Below, one piece after another: positions 75 to 9,178 of a stretch of DNA of 9,788 nucleotides. Positions within the stretch are counted from its first letter, which is position 1; every line of letters starts with the position of its first letter. The position numbers and the translations under genes were made by a program. The DNA comes from a bacterium (GTDB lineage Bacteria > SM23-31 > JAUVVT01): assembly GCA_030616165.1 (NCBI GenBank), contig JAUWXV010000137.1, positions 1 to 9,788 on the forward strand, given 5' to 3'. A model generated the notes under the pieces. It did not search any database. It saw nothing but the letters and a program-made list of their open reading frames with translations, and was not told the DNA's origin.

Positions 75-476
75 ATGGGACAACAGCAACTTTTATTAAT
101 TGTCTTAGGAGTAATTATTGTTGGTATAGCGGTAGCAGTTGGTATTTCAATGTTAGGTTCACAAGCAGCCCAAGCCAACTTTGACGCAGTGGTAGCGGAT
201 GTGCAAAGAATATCTGCTGATTCTCAGGGTTGGTACAGAAAGCCAACCTCTTTAGGTGGGGGAGGAAGATCTTTCGCAGATATTACTTTATCCTCAATTG
301 GAGCCCCGAGTGCTAATGTTAATGGTTCCTATTCAATAACTGGTACACCATCTGTGAACACCTTTACTGTACAAGGTCTTGGTGTTGAAGATGGCGATGA
401 TGACGGCACTAATGTAACTGTTTCTTTAGCGGTTTATGCTGATTCGGTAGGTACGTTAACTGTAAACAGCAGATAA
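75..476 (+). CDS. Type IV pilin-like protein, probable major pilin subunit
   Basis: A 133-residue protein with a pilin-like layout: a two-residue leader (Met-Gly), a hydrophobic helix at residues about 6-28, an amphipathic continuation (about 29-55) and a small Ser/Thr/Gly-rich C-terminal domain with alternating beta-like stretches. Prepilin peptidase would be expected to cut after Gly2, leaving a mature protein starting Gln-Gln-Gln. The Glu normally found at mature position 5 is absent (Leu). There is no cysteine, so no disulfide-bounded D-region. Residues 106-111 (DGDDDG) fit the DxDxDG pattern of calcium-binding loops. Seen: helix, leader, very strong RBS, own terminator and place at the head of a pilus operon. 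Inferred: major pilin. It could instead be a pseudopilin, but size, expression signals and position favour the main subunit. The C-terminal domain is not one I recognise. Confidence 0.75.
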   Translation: MGQQQLLLIVLGVIIVGIAVAVGISMLGSQAAQANFDAVVADVQRISADSQGWYRKPTSLGGGGRSFADITLSSIGAPSANVNGSYSITGTPSVNTFTVQGLGVEDGDDDGTNVTVSLAVYADSVGTLTVNSR

Positions 477-540: not shown

Positions 541-1884
541 ATGGCAGATTTTAGATATACGACTGTGAGTTTAGAAAATAAAACGGTTCGGGGTATAATA
601 TCTGATAAAAGTTTAAAGAATGCCAAAAGAATTATAGACGGAATCTGCAGAAGGAATAATTTAAGACTTCTCAAAATTGAAAAAAAAGTTACATATCTGT
701 ATTCAGTTCAGAAACGAAATGAGAAACCTTCAAAAGGAGAACAAAAAGCATATTCTAAAGATGAAATAACCAGTGCTCTTCAAAAGATGGGGTTTAGAGT
801 TCTTAAAGTACAAAAGAAATTGTTTGATTTCCGCTTTCCACCTCCATCTAAAGATATTGTGATGTTCATTAGAATTACCGCTGATTTGCTCAAAGAAAAA
901 CTCTCTTATAATGAAATTCTGACGCTATTGTTGAGCGATATGGAGAATAAAACATTAAAAGAGACAATCAGAGAAATAAATCAAGATTTAAAGGATGGTA
1001 AAGAAGGTAGAGAGGTATTTGGGAAACAACAAGGTGTTTTAGGTAAGTTTCCCTCTTACATGTTGGGTGTGGCTTCTACTAGCGGCGATATGGCAACTAT
1101 CTATGAAAGCACTGCAAAATTTTTAGAAAGAAATGAAGAATTTAAAAAAAATCTCAGGCAAGCTCTTGTAATGCCGGTCGTCATACTGTTTTTTCTTTTC
1201 CTGGCAATTATGTTTTATGTTGCTTATATTTTCCCTAAAACAGCCGAGATGTTTCTCAAGTTCAACATTCCACTTCCCCCTTTAACGAGTGCTACGTTAG
1301 GATTAAGCGAATTTCTAAAGAATAATATTATCTGGATTTTACTTGGTGTAGGTGTGATAATTTGGTTTGTGATTAAATTTGTTAAGTCTCAAAAAGGAAG
1401 ACTTCTTATAGATAAATCTATGCATAAAATTCCAGTCGTAGGACCACTTATGCATAAGACGAGCATTGAAATATTTTCAAGGGTTTTTTATGCACTTTAT
1501 TCTGGTTCGGGAGAGAATATTACTGTGTTGAAAATAGCAGCAGAAGCATGCAGAAATACTTACATGGAAAAACGAATTAAAGAGATAGCAATCCCTATGA
1601 TGATAAAAGAAGGGAAAGGATTGGTAGAATCATTAGAAAAGACGGGAGTTTTTACGAAAAATGCTTTATCCAGATTTCGGTCAGGAGCTGAATCTGGTAC
1701 ACTTAAAATAGCCGCATACCAATTATCTAATTATTATGAAAAAGAAACAACATATAAATTAAAAAATATTATAGATTTAATAAATATCTCAATTTCTATG
1801 TTCATTATGGTAGTTATGATACTTTTAACTCTTATTTCATCAGAAACAGCATTAATTAAACCCGAAAGTCCTCTATCACGTTAA
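541..1884 (+). CDS. pilC: Type IV pilus inner-membrane platform protein, PilC/GspF family
   Basis: A 447-residue polytopic membrane protein, of usual PilC/GspF size. It forms the platform on which the assembly and retraction ATPases act. Two T2SSF repeats are visible at about 105-230 and 308-430, each with the family signature near its middle (STSGDM at 179-184; GAESGTL at 382-388). Membrane segments lie at about 209-231 (followed by the typical FPKTAEMF), 261-281 and 412-433. The N-terminal cytoplasmic part opens with the family's F-x-Y start, but its second half appears doubled: residues about 22-50 and 72-93 both end in similar strands (LRLLKIEKK and FRVLKVQKK). The start is supported by GGTGAG at 532-537. 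The T4P name is preferred over T2SS gspF because PilT- and PilM-type genes lie in the same cluster. Confidence 0.92.
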   Translation: MADFRYTTVSLENKTVRGIISDKSLKNAKRIIDGICRRNNLRLLKIEKKVTYLYSVQKRNEKPSKGEQKAYSKDEITSALQKMGFRVLKVQKKLFDFRFPPPSKDIVMFIRITADLLKEKLSYNEILTLLLSDMENKTLKETIREINQDLKDGKEGREVFGKQQGVLGKFPSYMLGVASTSGDMATIYESTAKFLERNEEFKKNLRQALVMPVVILFFLFLAIMFYVAYIFPKTAEMFLKFNIPLPPLTSATLGLSEFLKNNIIWILLGVGVIIWFVIKFVKSQKGRLLIDKSMHKIPVVGPLMHKTSIEIFSRVFYALYSGSGENITVLKIAAEACRNTYMEKRIKEIAIPMMIKEGKGLVESLEKTGVFTKNALSRFRSGAESGTLKIAAYQLSNYYEKETTYKLKNIIDLINISISMFIMVVMILLTLISSETALIKPESPLSR

Positions 1885-1899: not shown

Positions 1900-3681
1900 T
1901 TGGCTGCAAAGATTAAAACACTTATTGGTGAAAACCTTGTAAAAAAAGGGGTGGTGGATAACGAGACTTTAATTAAAGCTCTTGAAGTTCAAAACAGAGA
2001 ACCTATATCTGCTCGTAGAAAAGTAGGAGATATACTTATAGATGAGTTTGGCGTTGACAGACATAGAATTTATAAAGAAATTGCCAAAATTTATGGATTC
2101 AAAGAGATAGTTTTGGATGGATATCAACTGGAAAAAGAACAAACAGAATTTATGAAATCAATAATTGAAAAGATTGATAGAAAAGATAGAGAGTATATTA
2201 TAAAAAAAAGGATGCTCCCCTTTAAAATTAGCGATAAGAAGAAGGATGTTTTAATTGTTCTTGCAGCTGACCCTACCGATAAACATATTCCGGATGTGGT
2301 TATTCATTTTGGTTTTAATAAATACGAAATTGCTTATGCGCGTATGGAATGTATCGATGATTTGATTGGTAAAATTGCTCCGCTTAAAAATGAGTTTCTC
2401 CAGATTCTTGAAGAAATGACAGGTGAAGTAGAAACGCCATCTGAAGAAGAAGAAGGAATTGATGAAGATGCATTAGATGCAGAAATTCATCAAAGCAAGT
2501 TAACAAGTTTGGTTGAAGCAAGTTTAATTGAAGCTGTTCGTCAGAAAGCCAGTGATGTTCATATTATTCCGCAAGAAGGAAATAAGGTTGACTTTAATTT
2601 CAGAGTCGATGGAAGGTTAAAAGTATGGCATACTCAGGAGAAGACCAAACCAGAAGCAATGTCCGCAGTATTTAAAGACAGAACTAAAAATGTAGATAGA
2701 TTTGAACGTGAATCCGCACAGGATGGATTTATTCAGAGAAAAGTTGATGATTATATCATAAGATATCGGGTATCTATTTTACCAATGGTAGGAGCTGAAT
2801 TCGAGAGAAAATTGGAATCGATAGTAGTACGTGTCCTGGATGATAGAAAAGTAATTACAGATTTAGAAAAGCTGGGTTTACAAAAAAAGGCAAAAGAAGA
2901 TTTTGTTAAGGCTGTATCAAAACCACAGGGAATCGTAATTTTAACCGGTCCTACAGGAAGTGGTAAAAGTACTACACTTATAGCAGCATTGCATTATGTT
3001 ATTGATCCTTCATTGTGCGTTTTAACTGTTGAAGATCCTGTAGAATATTTGATTAGAGGTGCACGGCAGCTTAAAATTGGTCCCAAAATGGATTTTGATC
3101 AGGCATTGAGGTCAATATTAAGACATGACCCTGATATCGTGATGCTTGGAGAGATGAGAGATGCTAAAACAGCCGACATTGCTATAAAGCTTGCCAATAC
3201 AGGACACTTAACTTTTTCTACTTTACATACAAATGATGCTCCAAGTGCTATTTCCAGGTTGTTTAAAATGGGTGTTGAACCGTTTCTAATTGCTAATGCT
3301 ATAAATATAGTTGTTGCACAGAGATTAATAAGGACCCTTTGTCCTAAATGTAAAAAAGAAATCAAAAATATTAATAAAAATATTCCAATAGCAATTGGAT
3401 TCACAGAAGAAGAAATTGATAATACAACATTTTATGAACTTGTAGGTTGCGATGAATGCAATAGAGGATATAAGGGTAGAGCGGCAATTCATGAAGCGCT
3501 TCTTTTTACAAAAGAAATTAAAAAAATAATTTTTGATGCAAGAGAAAATATTAATGAAGAGGCGATTCGTCAACAGGGTTTAAAACATGGAATGTTAACA
3601 CTAAGAATGTCGGGAAGGGAAAGAATTAAACAGGGTATTACAACATGTGAAGAAGTTGCCTTTGCGACTGCAGAGGATTAA
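1900..3681 (+). CDS. pilB: Type IV pilus assembly ATPase, PilB/GspE family
   Basis: A 593-residue hexameric motor ATPase expected to power pilin polymerisation from the cytoplasmic face. An N-terminal MshEN/T2SSE_N-like domain (about 5-160) contains two helical half-motifs (7-31 and 40-66). A very acidic linker (about 171-195, with EEEE at 182-185) leads to the N2 domain (about 200-325), beginning with the typical ASDVHI. The C-terminal ATPase core has Walker A GPTGSGKST (350-358), Asp box VEDPVEY (377-383), Walker B with HDPDIVMLGEMRD (409-421, Glu418 the likely catalytic base) and His box TGHLTFSTLHT (434-444). The zinc-binding tetracysteine CPKC (481-484) and CDEC (517-520), typical of assembly rather than retraction ATPases, is intact. 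All catalytic motifs look functional. The start codon is TTG, 15 bases after pilC. Confidence 0.95.
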   Translation: MAAKIKTLIGENLVKKGVVDNETLIKALEVQNREPISARRKVGDILIDEFGVDRHRIYKEIAKIYGFKEIVLDGYQLEKEQTEFMKSIIEKIDRKDREYIIKKRMLPFKISDKKKDVLIVLAADPTDKHIPDVVIHFGFNKYEIAYARMECIDDLIGKIAPLKNEFLQILEEMTGEVETPSEEEEGIDEDALDAEIHQSKLTSLVEASLIEAVRQKASDVHIIPQEGNKVDFNFRVDGRLKVWHTQEKTKPEAMSAVFKDRTKNVDRFERESAQDGFIQRKVDDYIIRYRVSILPMVGAEFERKLESIVVRVLDDRKVITDLEKLGLQKKAKEDFVKAVSKPQGIVILTGPTGSGKSTTLIAALHYVIDPSLCVLTVEDPVEYLIRGARQLKIGPKMDFDQALRSILRHDPDIVMLGEMRDAKTADIAIKLANTGHLTFSTLHTNDAPSAISRLFKMGVEPFLIANAINIVVAQRLIRTLCPKCKKEIKNINKNIPIAIGFTEEEIDNTTFYELVGCDECNRGYKGRAAIHEALLFTKEIKKIIFDARENINEEAIRQQGLKHGMLTLRMSGRERIKQGITTCEEVAFATAED

Positions 3682-3696
3682 AGCAAAAAGAAGTAA

Positions 3697-4173
3697 ATGG
3701 TTGAAAATCCCGAAAATTTAATAGTAAACAAAAAAATAAAATTGTTGGATGGACTTTCAATTGAAGAGAAAATGGAGTTCTTATCATTTGGGTCTGTCAG
3801 GGAATATTATCTGCACGATAAAATTATTATTGAAAACCAGGATGATATGAACATATATCTGGTAATGGATGGCGAAGTTTCTGTATGGCGAAAGAATATT
3901 CCAATTTTCGAATTAAAAAAAGGAGACGTATTTAACGAGACAAAAATATTTTCACCAAAGCCAAATTCTATCACTGTAGTGGCAGAAAAACAAACGACAA
4001 TAATGAAAATTGGACGGAAGGAAGTTTTGAATTATTTTAGTTTGAAACCAGAACGGCTATTTAAAATTTTTGTTTTAAATATCGTTTCAATATTATCAAA
4101 AAAACTTGAAAATTACGAAGAAAAATTGGTGAGTCATTATTATCAAGCTATCTCATTATTAAAAGGTGAATAG
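3697..4173 (+). CDS. CRP-like cyclic-nucleotide-binding-fold protein without DNA-binding domain
   Basis: A 158-residue soluble protein. Residues about 15-120 follow the cyclic-nucleotide-binding beta-barrel pattern: a leading helix, strands, YLVMDGEVSVW (54-64), then LKKGDVFNET (73-82) and SITVVA (92-97). No helix-turn-helix follows; the tail (about 120-158) is a single helical stretch. In true cAMP/cGMP binders the phosphate-binding cassette reads G-E-x(n)-R-[AST]-A. Here the Gly is Asn80, the Glu is kept (Glu81), and Asn occupies the place of the key Arg, so classical nucleotide binding is doubtful. It sits 15 bases after pilB and three bases before the first minor pilin, so it is surely co-transcribed. 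Inferred role: a signal-sensing or scaffolding partner of the pilus motor. I know no established T4P component of this type. Confidence 0.75.
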   Translation: MVENPENLIVNKKIKLLDGLSIEEKMEFLSFGSVREYYLHDKIIIENQDDMNIYLVMDGEVSVWRKNIPIFELKKGDVFNETKIFSPKPNSITVVAEKQTTIMKIGRKEVLNYFSLKPERLFKIFVLNIVSILSKKLENYEEKLVSHYYQAISLLKGE

Positions 4174-4176
4174 ATA

Positions 4177-4665
4177 ATGAATCTGGGAGAAACATTATTG
4201 GTTTTGGGTGCGCTGGTAATATTTTCAATGGCAGCACTTTACTTAAATGATTCAAAGTTTGATAATGACATGACACTTATGGAAACCGAATTTAGAACAA
4301 CAGCTATTGGTATTGCTCAATCTTTTATTGAAGAGGCACAGTCTTTGAAATTTGATGAGATTTTAGACGATAGTACTTATACGGCAGGATTGCCTGATAA
4401 TTTTACAGATATTGCTTCGTTAGGTCCTGATGCTGGTGAATCTTATCTAAATTTTGATGATGTGGATGACTTCAATGGCTATTCAGCAAATATAAATACG
4501 CCCAGAGCAAATTATGATGTGGATATAATTGTTAGTTATGCTGATTCAGTAAATGTTAATCCTGGGTACTTAAATAAATCTTTTTTAAAGATTATGGCTG
4601 TGAAGATAACGAGTATTTTCTTCAGTGATAGTATAAAGTTAGATTATTTATATAGCTATCGTTAG
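4177..4665 (+). CDS. Minor pilin-like protein, PilV/GspI-like
   Basis: A 162-residue pilin-like protein with a short leader ending in Gly4, a hydrophobic helix (about 5-23) and a C-terminal domain rich in Asp, Tyr and Phe. The N-terminus after Gly4 begins Glu-Thr-Leu-Leu; the usual Glu5 is absent and a Glu stands at position +1 instead. The stretch DDFNGYS (97-103) followed by alternating strands and ending in LDYLYSYR resembles the C-terminal part of PilV/GspI-type minor pilins. There is no cysteine. AAAAGGTGA at 4161-4169 is a good ribosome binding site, and only three bases separate the start from the preceding stop. Expected role: part of the minor-pilin complex that starts pilus assembly. 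The PilV-like label rests on size, place and general pattern, not a strong signature. Confidence 0.65.
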   Translation: MNLGETLLVLGALVIFSMAALYLNDSKFDNDMTLMETEFRTTAIGIAQSFIEEAQSLKFDEILDDSTYTAGLPDNFTDIASLGPDAGESYLNFDDVDDFNGYSANINTPRANYDVDIIVSYADSVNVNPGYLNKSFLKIMAVKITSIFFSDSIKLDYLYSYR

Positions 4666-4677
4666 GGGATATTACTG

Positions 4678-5235
4678 ATGAATGTATATCTTGATATAGT
4701 TTTTTCGATAATTATAGGGTCTATGCTTCTATTGATGATACTTGCATATAATTTTGATATGATTGAGACAAGTAGTATAAATAATATGTATTTTACAACT
4801 CAAAAAAATGGTTTTGACCTTCAAGAAATATTAAGGTATGATTTTAGAAAAATTGGTTTGGGAGTTCCGGATACTTCCGCTGTATTGTCGATTGCTGATT
4901 CAACTCAAATAAAATTTAAAACCGATCTTGATTTAGATGGCAGCATAAATGAAATACATTATTATCTTGGAGATTCGAGTTCAGCAGATTTCACCGAAAA
5001 TCCCAACGATAGACTTCTATATCGTAAAGTCGATAGTAATCCACCAGAAACATATCCAATTGGTTTAATAAATTTTAATTTTACCTATTATGATGAAAAT
5101 GGAGGTTCTACAATTATTTTAGATGATATAGAACAGTTAGAGTATAATTATTATTTAGAAAGCACCTTTGGATATAATGGAGAATACCCGGGAATGTTTA
5201 TCAGAGGGAGAATAAACCTAAAAAATATAGATTAA
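4678..5235 (+). CDS. Minor pilin-like protein, PilW/GspJ-like
   Basis: A 185-residue protein with one N-terminal membrane helix (about 6-24) and a beta-rich extracytoplasmic domain. FRKIGLG (56-62) corresponds to the 'D-x-R-x-A-G' region after the helix in PilW proteins. The DLDLDG stretch (83-88) followed by INEIHYYL and then LLYRKV is the familiar PilW pattern of an Asp-rich turn, a Tyr strand and an 'L-x-R' strand. No glycine precedes the hydrophobic helix, so no prepilin peptidase site is visible, and no alternative start would add one because an in-frame TAG lies 15 bases upstream. AGGGG at 4664-4668 is a likely ribosome binding site. There are no cysteines. It probably joins its neighbours in the pilus-priming or tip complex. 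Confidence 0.65.
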   Translation: MNVYLDIVFSIIIGSMLLLMILAYNFDMIETSSINNMYFTTQKNGFDLQEILRYDFRKIGLGVPDTSAVLSIADSTQIKFKTDLDLDGSINEIHYYLGDSSSADFTENPNDRLLYRKVDSNPPETYPIGLINFNFTYYDENGGSTIILDDIEQLEYNYYLESTFGYNGEYPGMFIRGRINLKNID

Positions 5236-5236
5236 T

Positions 5237-6331
5237 ATGGGTAAATCAGTTTTAATTGTTTTAATGGGATTTCTTATTATTTTTAATATTATTGCAATTA
5301 ATATGAACAAAACAGGTACAGAGGCTGAGGTTACTCTTTATGACTCTTACAGTAGCGTGATGGCAAAGGATATTGCTGAAAGCGGTGTAAATGCTATATT
5401 ATCAAAATTAGTATATAACTCGTACTGGCGTGGAGAAAAGTCGAGCATTGCACTTGCTGGTGGGAGTTTTACTGCTGGAGCCGTAAGTGATACTTCTTTG
5501 GGTCCATTCGGTATAAAAGTGTATTCATACAGCAATTTCAATAGTATTTTAGATACTGTTTTTGTATATTTGACAATCGAGTTATCCTTCCCTATTGGAG
5601 TGCGTGCCGGTGTAACAGCAAACTCAGATATATCAACAAGTGGTGGTTTAACAATAGACGGAAGAAATCACGATGAGAATGGAAATGTAATTGACACAAC
5701 AGGAACTTATGGAATATCCACCACATCTACTTTTATTCCACTACCGAACTGTTATGTGGGAGGTACCGTCAATAGTAATGATTATACACCATTGAGACCG
5801 GGTCATCCAAAATACGATCCAATCGTTGTTGAAGAAGGAGTCACATGGGAAGGCGGGTTTCCTGACACACCTGATAAAGTAATGGGAGGTGAAGCTGCCG
5901 GCTACCCGGAAGGGACATTGAAAAGTATAGCTCAAAGTGGATTTAATGGCAGTCAATATGTCACTTATCCCCCATCTGAACCGTCATATCCGCTTAGTGG
6001 CGTGACGTATATAGAATTGACCGTGGGTGAATATAACCCTCCAGATTTTACTAATAGTAGTGGAATATTGGTGATTCACAATTCGAGTTCGACTGCTGCA
6101 ATAAAAAATTTAAATACTGGTACTTTTAAGGGATTAATTATTGCTGATGATATTGATAAAATTAAGTGCGAGGTAATTGGCGCCGTGGTTGGTTTAACAA
6201 CAACACCCTCGGGCAATCTTATCGGAAATGGAGACGGGATTATAAAATACAGCTCAACACTTGTTAGCCAGACTACAACTGGTTTACCTGGTGTAAAATG
6301 TGATTTAAACATAGTAAAATGGATTTATTAG
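5237..6331 (+). CDS. PilX-like minor pilin with large C-terminal domain
   Basis: A 364-residue protein starting Met-Gly, then a hydrophobic helix (about 4-23) and an amphipathic region (about 30-60, with AKDIAESGVNAILSKL resembling the 'A-E-S-G' helix of PilX/GspK proteins). A large extracellular region follows. The segment around ISTSGGLTIDGRNHDENG and the C-terminal stretch 256-345 (GVLVI-like strand, KGLIIADDI, EVIGAVVGL, GDGIIKYSS) match a repeat-strand domain often found at the end of pilus-assembly PilX-type proteins. Three cysteines occur (172, 311, 355). The start overlaps nothing but lies one base after the previous stop and has no nearby Shine-Dalgarno, which suggests translational coupling. 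Likely role: the biggest member of the minor-pilin complex, possibly exposed at the pilus tip and contacting surfaces. The adhesive role is inference only. Confidence 0.68.
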   Translation: MGKSVLIVLMGFLIIFNIIAINMNKTGTEAEVTLYDSYSSVMAKDIAESGVNAILSKLVYNSYWRGEKSSIALAGGSFTAGAVSDTSLGPFGIKVYSYSNFNSILDTVFVYLTIELSFPIGVRAGVTANSDISTSGGLTIDGRNHDENGNVIDTTGTYGISTTSTFIPLPNCYVGGTVNSNDYTPLRPGHPKYDPIVVEEGVTWEGGFPDTPDKVMGGEAAGYPEGTLKSIAQSGFNGSQYVTYPPSEPSYPLSGVTYIELTVGEYNPPDFTNSSGILVIHNSSSTAAIKNLNTGTFKGLIIADDIDKIKCEVIGAVVGLTTTPSGNLIGNGDGIIKYSSTLVSQTTTGLPGVKCDLNIVKWIY

Positions 6332-6390
6332 TATAATGTATTTAATTATAGATACCACAAACTTTATTATCAGGGTTCATATAATTTAAT

Positions 6391-6439: not shown

Positions 6440-7651
6440 ATGGAAAAAGAAATAATTAAAAAGGTTATATCTGAAATTCCTGATAATCTTACAGGGGTGG
6501 ATAGACAAAGGGTGATTGGGGAAAAGGTAAATAATTTTTCTCTTGAAGAACGAACTGCTTTAAGAAAATTCTTGGAAAGCGCTATGACAAAGATGAAAGA
6601 AAACGATGCTTCTGATATAGATTTAGGTGGATATGGATGCACAGGATTTATCTGGTATCGTATTCATGGAATAAAGAAATCTGATGAGTCATTTGGAAAT
6701 TTCGCTCCACTGGAAACAGATGTTTTGTGTCAGAATCTTTTAACTCAAACTCAAATGAATTACCTATATGAAAACAGGAATTTAGATTTTTCCTATAAGA
6801 TTGAAAAGGATGGAAAACTATTTCGATACAGAGCAGACATGTATTTTGATTTAGATCATCTTGCATTGAATTGTCGATTTATTTCCAATATAATCAGACC
6901 TTTTAAGAATTTGAATCTGCATCCTAATGTAGTTAAGGCATTAAGCTTAAAAACAGACAAATATGGTTTAACGTTGATTACTGGCATTACCGGGTCGGGA
7001 AAAAGTTCGACACTTGACAGTATAATTGATGCAAATAATAAAACTATAGAAGCTCACATTGTTATAATTGCATCTCCAATTGAAACAGTGCACACGTCGA
7101 ATAAATGTATAATAAGACACAGGGAAGTCGGTAGAGATGTCCGTTCATTTAAAGCAGGGGCAATTCAGGCTTTAAGACAGGACCCAGATATAATTGTAAT
7201 TGGCGAGATGAGAGACCCCGATACTATAATTACTTCTCTTGAAATAACAGACAGCGGGCATAAAGTGTATTCAACATTACATACTGCTTCAGCAGTAGAA
7301 AGCATCGATAGAATCATAGGTGAATGCCCATCAGAAGAACAGGAAAGAGTCAGAATGAGATTGGCAGACACATTAAGATGTGTCATGTCTCAGAAGTTAG
7401 TTTCAACTGTAGATGGAAAAAGAATCCTGACAAAAGAAATTATGTTAATGACCCCCTCTATAATGGCAGCAATAAAGAATAATAACACCGGTGAAATTTA
7501 TCAGATGATAAATGAAGGGAAAGCAAATGGAATGACTACTATGGAGCAAGATTTGTTAAGGTTGGTTAATGAGGGGAAAATAACAGAACCTGAAGCAGAA
7601 AACTTTGCAAATAATAAAAAACGTATGAGAGAACTATTGGGAATAGCTTAA
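6440..7651 (+). CDS. pilT: PilT-family retraction ATPase with altered Asp box
   Basis: A 403-residue motor ATPase of the PilT family, which depolymerises pili. It is longer than typical PilT, mostly through an N-terminal addition of about 55 residues before the first domain (from ASDIDL at 57-62). The core has Walker A GITGSGKSS (182-190; the usual Pro is Ile), Walker B with QDPDIIVIGEMRD (247-259, Glu256 the likely catalytic base) and His box DSGHKVYSTLHT (271-282). It lacks the tetracysteine of PilB. The Asp box, normally E-D-P-I-E, reads ASPIE (211-215): both first acidic residues are lost while the rest is kept. The PilT C-terminal AIRNLIRE region is only partly kept (AIKNNNTGE, 344-352), followed by a normal GMTTMEQDLL. 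No Shine-Dalgarno precedes the ATG. It could work more weakly than, or differently from, classical PilT (for example PilU-like). Confidence 0.85.
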   Translation: MEKEIIKKVISEIPDNLTGVDRQRVIGEKVNNFSLEERTALRKFLESAMTKMKENDASDIDLGGYGCTGFIWYRIHGIKKSDESFGNFAPLETDVLCQNLLTQTQMNYLYENRNLDFSYKIEKDGKLFRYRADMYFDLDHLALNCRFISNIIRPFKNLNLHPNVVKALSLKTDKYGLTLITGITGSGKSSTLDSIIDANNKTIEAHIVIIASPIETVHTSNKCIIRHREVGRDVRSFKAGAIQALRQDPDIIVIGEMRDPDTIITSLEITDSGHKVYSTLHTASAVESIDRIIGECPSEEQERVRMRLADTLRCVMSQKLVSTVDGKRILTKEIMLMTPSIMAAIKNNNTGEIYQMINEGKANGMTTMEQDLLRLVNEGKITEPEAENFANNKKRMRELLGIA

Positions 7652-7666: not shown

Positions 7667-9178
7667 GTGGAAGCCCTTGGCATCTGTGTAGATGGTAATG
7701 AATTAAAATTTGCACATCTAGGAAAGAGGAAAAAAAGTATTGAGATAATTGGTTTGGATAAAGTTTTTATTAAAAAAACTGGTAAGGGAAAAGTATCTCA
7801 AAAAGAAACCGAAGAGGGTTATGAGGATGTATTGGGTTTAGAAGGTTCAGAAGAGGCGGCTGTCCAGGAGGAGGTTAGTCCTGAATTAGAGAGCAATATG
7901 CTATTTAATACATTTTCTAAGTATTCAAAGAAAAGTCTTAAAGCCGGAATGAATATTTTGCAATCAGATGTGTCATTTACTAATATTTTTACAGGCATTG
8001 GTTCAAAAGAAAAGAATATTAAAAAGAGAATTAGGGAGGAATTGGAAAAGATTTCGAGTGATATAAATGATGAAAACTTTGATTTTATCACAAAAAGCAG
8101 AAATGAATATATAGCCTTTTATCATAATAATAGATTAGACTTATTGAACCAGATTTTGAATTTAAAATCCGCTGTAAAAAGTGATATAAAAATCACACTT
8201 ATAGATATCAATGAGGTATCTTTGATAAATCTCTTTATGAACATGATTGAAACTGATGAGGAAGTAAATATTTTGGTGTATGTTGGAAATGAGTTCAGCA
8301 GAAGTATATTTTTTCAAGGGGAAAAAATAATTGATTTTTCTCAATTGATTAACGAAGGATATCGTTCTGATGGATTGCTTACAGATCTGTATGGTAAGAT
8401 TATTTTCGTGATTGATACGTTGGGATTTGAAGAGATAAATAATATATTTATCACTGGCGATGGAAATCTTTCTCAATATGAAGAATTTTTTAAAGAAAAA
8501 TTCCCTGAAAGTGTAGTCTCAAAATTACCTTTTAAAAATTTTTTCAATGTCATAGATGAATCCAAAAAAGTAGAAGTCGATAGCTTTGCCATTCCAATTT
8601 CTCTTGCGTGGAAAATATTAGAGGGAAAAGAAAAATCTTTTATAGATACCAACTTTTTACCTATAAGCATTCGGAAACAGCAAAAGGCGTTAAATATTGC
8701 ATGGCATGGATTCATTATTATTATTTTGATTATTTTATCAATTGCTTTTTCTTACAGGGAAAATGAAAACATTGATAATGAAATAAAAAATATGAAGTCG
8801 GGAATAAGTTTATTGAATATAAAAATCGATAATATAACCCCTGTGGCTCAAGCAGTTGATAGTATCGCAAATGAGATAGCCAAGATTAAACCTAATATAG
8901 TATTGGTGGATAAATTAAAACCTGAAAATATGTTACATTCTGATTTATTGAGGTATTTGTCAAATAATATAAGAAATTTAAACTCAATATGGGTGAATGA
9001 ATTTTTGGCTTCGGGTAAAACTTTTTCTTTTTCAGGAAATTCTTTATATAGAACCAGAATTCATAAATTGGCAAGTGCTTTTGAACAATCAAGAATAAAT
9101 AATGTAGATTCTAAACAGATTATGGATAAAGATATTTTTGATTATTACATTTCAGGAGAAATTCCTGGTAAAAAATAG
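7667..9178 (+). CDS. pilMN: PilM-PilN fusion: actin-like domain joined to a membrane-anchored PilN domain
   Basis: A 503-residue protein that joins two alignment-complex subunits. Residues 1-320 are PilM-like: first phosphate motif GICVDGNELKF (5-15), second phosphate-type region NILVYVGNEF (201-210) and adenosine-type motif IFITGDGNL (260-268). A poorly conserved, charged stretch (about 36-125) is inserted after the first strands. Residues 326-332 (IDTNFLP) match the short peptide by which free PilN docks into PilM. A membrane helix (347-363), a coiled-coil-like stretch (about 364-408) and a PilN-type periplasmic domain (about 420-490, with the IWVNEFLASGKTFSFSG pattern) follow. The layout copies that of GspL in type II secretion. 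There is no frameshift or stop between the halves, and the DNA reads cleanly through. Expected role: linking the cytoplasmic motor to PilO and the periplasmic complex. Confidence 0.85.
   Translation: MEALGICVDGNELKFAHLGKRKKSIEIIGLDKVFIKKTGKGKVSQKETEEGYEDVLGLEGSEEAAVQEEVSPELESNMLFNTFSKYSKKSLKAGMNILQSDVSFTNIFTGIGSKEKNIKKRIREELEKISSDINDENFDFITKSRNEYIAFYHNNRLDLLNQILNLKSAVKSDIKITLIDINEVSLINLFMNMIETDEEVNILVYVGNEFSRSIFFQGEKIIDFSQLINEGYRSDGLLTDLYGKIIFVIDTLGFEEINNIFITGDGNLSQYEEFFKEKFPESVVSKLPFKNFFNVIDESKKVEVDSFAIPISLAWKILEGKEKSFIDTNFLPISIRKQQKALNIAWHGFIIIILIILSIAFSYRENENIDNEIKNMKSGISLLNIKIDNITPVAQAVDSIANEIAKIKPNIVLVDKLKPENMLHSDLLRYLSNNIRNLNSIWVNEFLASGKTFSFSGNSLYRTRIHKLASAFEQSRINNVDSKQIMDKDIFDYYISGEIPGKK

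Follow-up and report, generated by a model that had tools for sequence, protein, structure and literature searches.

A CRP-type cyclic-nucleotide-binding-fold protein encoded next to pilB is probably an accessory regulator of the pilus motor

Introduction

Most of what is known about how pilus extension is controlled comes from Proteobacteria, Myxococcus, and cyanobacteria, where control has been traced to PilZ/FimX, MshE-type binding of c-di-GMP, polarity proteins, and Hfq. In Xanthomonas citri, the PilZ-FimX pair docks on the N-terminal domain of the extension ATPase PilB, and FimX increases ATPase activity (PMC8389850). In Synechocystis, PilB1 is bound by Hfq (PMC7690835). A third precedent comes from Bdellovibrio, where the CRP-like sensor dimer of Bd1971 governs an output that does not involve DNA (PMC6717892). 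Together, these precedents make plausible a mechanism in which a small sensor docks on the pilus motor, and none of them belongs to the family that we describe here.

We analyzed a 9,788-nucleotide stretch of a bacterial genome (GenBank assembly GCA_030616165.1, contig JAUWXV010000137.1), the whole of which we call the window. In it, a pilus operon encodes a stand-alone protein with a CRP-type cyclic-nucleotide-binding fold (CNBD). Judging from its gene neighborhood, the CNBD protein probably serves the pilus motor as an accessory regulator that has not been described before. If its family acts on the motor, then T4aP in a large and little-studied range of phyla would have a signaling part of their own, and there would be a direct cAMP-type or two-component route to pili that does not pass through transcription.

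Results

The gene for the CNBD protein occupies positions 3697..4173 of the forward strand, starts with ATG, ends with TAG, and encodes 158 amino acids. It is separated by a 15-base gap from the end of pilB at 3681 and by a 3-base gap from the next ORF, which begins at 4177. The translation belongs to the CNBD superfamily, matching the Pfam model cNMP_binding (PF00027) with an E value of 8.6e-10 and a score of 38.9 bits, where the cut-off is 27.5. An AlphaFold2 (AF2) model built from 12 sequences (mean pLDDT 89.8, pTM 0.80) has a beta-roll closed by a single 37-residue C-helix, which DSSP places at residues 119-155 (4051..4161, forward strand). A fold search with this model returned GlxR and CRP proteins as the closest solved structures (Z 16-18.5, ~130-146 residues aligned). 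In the model, the C-helix is where a dimer of the CRP type would form. The ORF, the Pfam match, and the modeled fold thus uphold the description in an earlier note, drawn from the bare letters, of a stand-alone CNBD fold set between pilB and the minor pilins.

That note had also argued that the protein is not a CRP-type transcription factor, and we agree. No HTH family matched in a Pfam search of the 158-aa translation, the chain stops at the C-helix, and the two CRP/FNR-type paralogues in the same genome, whose cassettes are intact, carry HTH_Crp_2, so a CRP/FNR transcription factor is ruled out. Because Pfam found no receiver domain in the 158 aa either, the protein is also not a REC-CNBD response regulator, and it has the CRP fold in place of a PilZ or EAL fold. 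No NCBIfam model has a cut-off that is reached by the protein or by five of its relatives.

The surrounding genes, all on the forward strand, form a pilus operon in which family matches back PilB, PilC, PilT, and PilO, while the other neighbors are named from their place and from homologues in the same order. The first gene of the conserved operon (75..476) encodes a pilin-like protein that has no Pfam match and whose 36-60% identical homologues hold the same place in homologous operons. It is followed by PilC (541..1884) of the T2SSF family (Pfam T2SSF, 9.7e-26), whose 50-67% identical homologues adjoin CNBD family members elsewhere, and by PilB (1900..3681; T2SSE, 5.3e-102), directly upstream of the CNBD gene, whose best NCBIfam match is type_IV_pilB with a score under the cut-off of that model. 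Downstream of the CNBD gene are two minor pilin-like proteins (4177..4665 and 4678..5235) and a PilX-like protein named by its place (5237..6331; no Pfam match), all three with homologues in related operons; in most Calditrichota/Balneolota relatives the gene for the first minor pilin-like protein lies between pilB and the CNBD gene. The retraction ATPase PilT (6440..7651; pilT_fam, 1e-93, just under its cut-off) comes next, then a 503-aa protein that is assigned to the PilM/PilN place by position only (7667..9178; homologues in related operons, no Pfam match), and finally a PilO-like protein that is open at the contig end (9138..9788; Pfam PilO, 1e-4, just above the cut-off). As listed, the PilO-like ORF begins 41 bases before the end of the 503-aa ORF, and an internal ATG further downstream is the likelier start. 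There are no terminator-like sites between the operon genes of the window.

Two observations concern PilB itself. At its N-terminus (1900-2150), the first MshEN-like repeat is without the leading Arg of its relatives (TLIGENL, compared with TRSGELL in the relative L023), so it is doubtful whether this PilB binds c-di-GMP. The protein clusters with the PilBs of its own phylum (97/97), which makes contamination of the assembly unlikely.

The family signature at the start of the C-helix, at residues 114-128 (FSLKPERLFKIFVLN; 4036..4080, forward strand; 18-row alignment), was the basis of a pattern for a genome-wide scan of contigs. The scan found 11 loci, each with pilB adjoining, in records titled Calditrichota, Latescibacterota, LCP-89, Balneolota, Bacteroidota, and others. 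These loci, and those of the phylum of genome G012, lie in pilC-pilB-...-pilT operons, as the gene in the window does, or directly next to pilB. In the phylum of genome G427, a sample of 394 genomes held 42 carriers, every one of them with the gene no more than ~1 kb from PilB on the same contig and every one with a single-domain protein in an open frame of 167-187 codons. When both queries were used across the G427 and G012 phyla, PilB was present in all carriers (49/49), and there were no carriers among the 292 genomes without PilB at threshold. The neighborhood search across phyla that the earlier note proposed thus came out in its favor, and the scan loci and phylum samples rule out a gene peculiar to this one genome. 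The link with the pilus is strong.

The same samples show how often a pilus operon is found without the gene, which is absent from 87 of the 129 PilB-bearing genomes of the G427 phylum and from 5 of the 12 in the G012 phylum (present in 7). Within the phylum of the window, one type of PilB is shared by all six genomes, and the gene occurs only in the genome of the window, the other five being incomplete assemblies. In many related operons the order is pilB-minor pilins-pilT, or simply pilB-pilT, without any intervening gene. Since so many pilB operons are without the CNBD gene, it must be optional, and a pilus is possible without it. Of the earlier claim that the protein belongs to the operon of the pilus machine, the linkage therefore holds across phyla, but the standing of a core component does not. 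Many PilB columns, at residues 110-225, are candidates for splitting carriers from non-carriers, and they are confounded by descent.

A family profile was built from 15 relatives, with the window and G012 proteins among its rows; these two score 174 and 170 bits as rows of their own model. The 40 members outside the rows score 126-159 bits, against 75 bits for the best non-member in 386 sampled genomes, so the border of the subfamily is clear; a second copy in G012, fused to a receiver, scores 73 bits. In a CNBD tree with three outgroups, the family clade has support of 97/93. The protein of the window sits on a long branch (1.23), and its placement is blurred by long branches. We found no specific Pfam or NCBIfam model for the subfamily, and a word-match search of open-access papers returned no work on a pilB-tied CNBD or receiver-CNBD gene, or on the gene in Calditrichota/Balneolota. 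The pilB-linked CNBD subfamily is real, conserved, and, as far as our searches reach, undescribed; the earlier note had called the protein the best candidate in the window for an undescribed T4P regulator or adaptor.

Four residues before or at the start of the C-helix, F114, E119, F122, and N128, are invariant in the 18 rows of <70% identity, the window included. Purifying selection on the family is strong, with dN/dS of 0.006-0.036 in those homologue pairs that have an estimable dS, synonymous change being saturated in many pairs. Conservation peaks in the C-helix motif and not in the ligand cassette. That the protein is maintained while a phosphate-binding residue is dispensable argues for a function in protein contact, at least in the branches that lack the Arg. 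The conserved C-helix residues could also serve the dimer or the fold.

The phosphate-binding cassette of the window, at residues 79-96 (FNETKIFSPKPNSITVVA; 3931..3984, forward strand; 45-sequence alignment), is degenerate: Gly80 and Arg90 are both replaced by Asn and Glu81 is retained, so the canonical cNMP-binding Gly-Glu plus Arg is missing. The earlier note had seen the Arg replacement, and not that of the Gly, and was right about this copy, but the degradation does not extend to the family, where the 45-sequence alignment retains Arg in 40, Glu in 43, and Gly in 44 sequences (13, 16, and 17, respectively, in the 18 rows of <70% identity). The Gly is missing in the window alone, and the Arg is absent in separate branches, namely the window, L011, L015/L018/L033, and L147/L148. 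By the alignment, then, the degraded cassette is genuine but local, with the copy in the window as an outlier. The residue two after the cassette Glu is small in CRP and PKA; in the 18-row alignment of the family it is often Phe, Asn, or Lys. Class III cyclases were matched in 19 of the 20 genomes checked, with four matches in the genome of the window. With the cassette mostly intact in relatives and cyclases so widespread, nucleotide binding elsewhere in the family is quite possible, and a cyclic nucleotide may still be the ligand of relatives whose cassette is intact. Our best reading includes a probable loss of nucleotide sensing in the copy of the window.

The family also comes in a second form. 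Several genomes of the G012 phylum, together with L026, encode the CNBD behind a receiver domain that is intact, matches Pfam Response_reg down to 4.4e-31, and has the conserved acidic pair (DD), D52, and K102; the receiver is present in L023, L025, L026, and L033. A model of full-length REC-CNBD has a good receiver and a long helix that joins it to the CNBD, and its CNBD part, from only four sequences, is weak. Both forms occur in genome G012, where one operon encodes the single domain and a second pilB is followed by the receiver-fused copy. This second pilB, with the receiver-CNBD gene and a secretin-like protein, lies at 13135-17113 of L012, apart from the main pil operon. The record of L026 is titled Gaiellales (Actinomycetota); its PilB and REC-CNBD cluster with a Calditrichota record, so the title or the binning is probably wrong.

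Mapped on the PilB tree, the presence of the gene needs four changes, and the gene in the window may be either an ancestral retention or a transfer. Loss can be seen directly in genome G761 (L139), where the 475 bases between pilB (4603-6387) and pilT (2904-4127) hold a decayed CNBD remnant with stop codons. The remnant matches the L148 protein with 63.5 bits, whereas the best of 200 shuffles reached 21.9, and the pilB and pilT frames beside it are full-length. The CNBD gene has thus been lost in place at least once.

Discussion

On balance, we lean toward the CNBD protein being a dedicated, optional cytoplasmic accessory of T4aP, in which a C-helix dimer docks on the motor and alters its activity or placement upon an input. 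The protein would dimerize through its C-helix, and the dimer would dock on a cytoplasmic part of the motor, probably via the region of F114, E119, F122, and N128. The most likely partner would be PilB, whose gene is directly upstream in many relatives, with PilT, PilC, and the protein at the PilM/PilN place as alternatives. In relatives whose cassette is intact, the input to which the docked dimer would respond is probably a cyclic nucleotide; in the receiver-fused forms it is probably phosphorylation. Lacking both a receiver and a normal cassette, the copy in the window would most likely act by protein contact alone or sense a different ligand.

Could the family instead be a true cyclic-nucleotide switch that binds cAMP or cGMP and signals to PilB, with the odd cassette of the window still binding nucleotide in an altered mode? 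The cassette counts of the 45-sequence alignment, the class III cyclases in nearly every genome checked, and the similarity of the fold to cAMP-bound CRP and GlxR all point this way. We nevertheless think it rather unlikely, because the Arg is missing in several separate branches that conserve the rest of the protein, the residue two after the Glu is often Phe, Asn, or Lys, and the window lacks both the Gly and the Arg. Strict operon linkage and strong purifying selection would also fit a part of the pilus base with a structural or assembly role, expressed with the rest because correct build-up requires it. Such a part, though, should not be missing from many close relatives of the operon that are complete in other respects, nor decayed in G761 next to full-length pilB and pilT frames, and the receiver fusions point to signaling; we regard a structural role as improbable.

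A different proposal concerns the genome of the window only: the family would be a pilus regulator and this copy a decaying, non-functional leftover. Its long branch, the loss of both Gly and Arg, the lack of the gene in the rest of its phylum (five genomes), and the real decayed copy in G761 are what one would expect of a relic, but the open frame is intact, the gene spacing is tight, all invariant C-helix residues are retained, and the AF2 fold is confident and compact, so that we consider a leftover very unlikely. The reading of a motor-docking accessory can also be widened to a class of motor regulators across Bacteroidota, Calditrichota, and Latescibacterota, in which a CRP-type sensor has moved from DNA to the pilus motor and exists in phosphorylation, cyclic-nucleotide, and ligand-free versions; we put this forward tentatively.

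Among described proteins, the CRP/FNR factors (CRP, GlxR, Vfr) are closest in fold, sharing the beta-roll and the long C-helix (Z up to 18.5), but the CNBD protein has no HTH, lies in a pilus operon, and has a degraded cassette and a C-helix motif of its own. Two structural-genomics proteins, 3gyd (Mfla_1926) and 3mdp (Gmet_1532), are likewise CNBDs of similar size without an HTH, a comparison made by structure only. Sycrp1 and Sycrp2 of Synechocystis are of the CRP type and tied to T4P and motility; however, they are cAMP-type transcription factors (PMC7690835), whereas the CNBD protein has no DNA-binding domain. Bd1971, a cNMP-EAL protein, resembles it, on our reading, as a CRP-like sensor dimer whose output does not involve DNA, but binds cAMP and cGMP and has its own enzyme domain (PMC6717892), while the chain of the CNBD protein includes no output domain. 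PilZ-FimX offers an analogy only, that of small cytoplasmic proteins of the second-messenger type acting on the T4aP extension ATPase (PMC8389850): the folds are unrelated, and the CNBD protein is of the CRP type, is encoded in the pilB operon, and may contact PilB.
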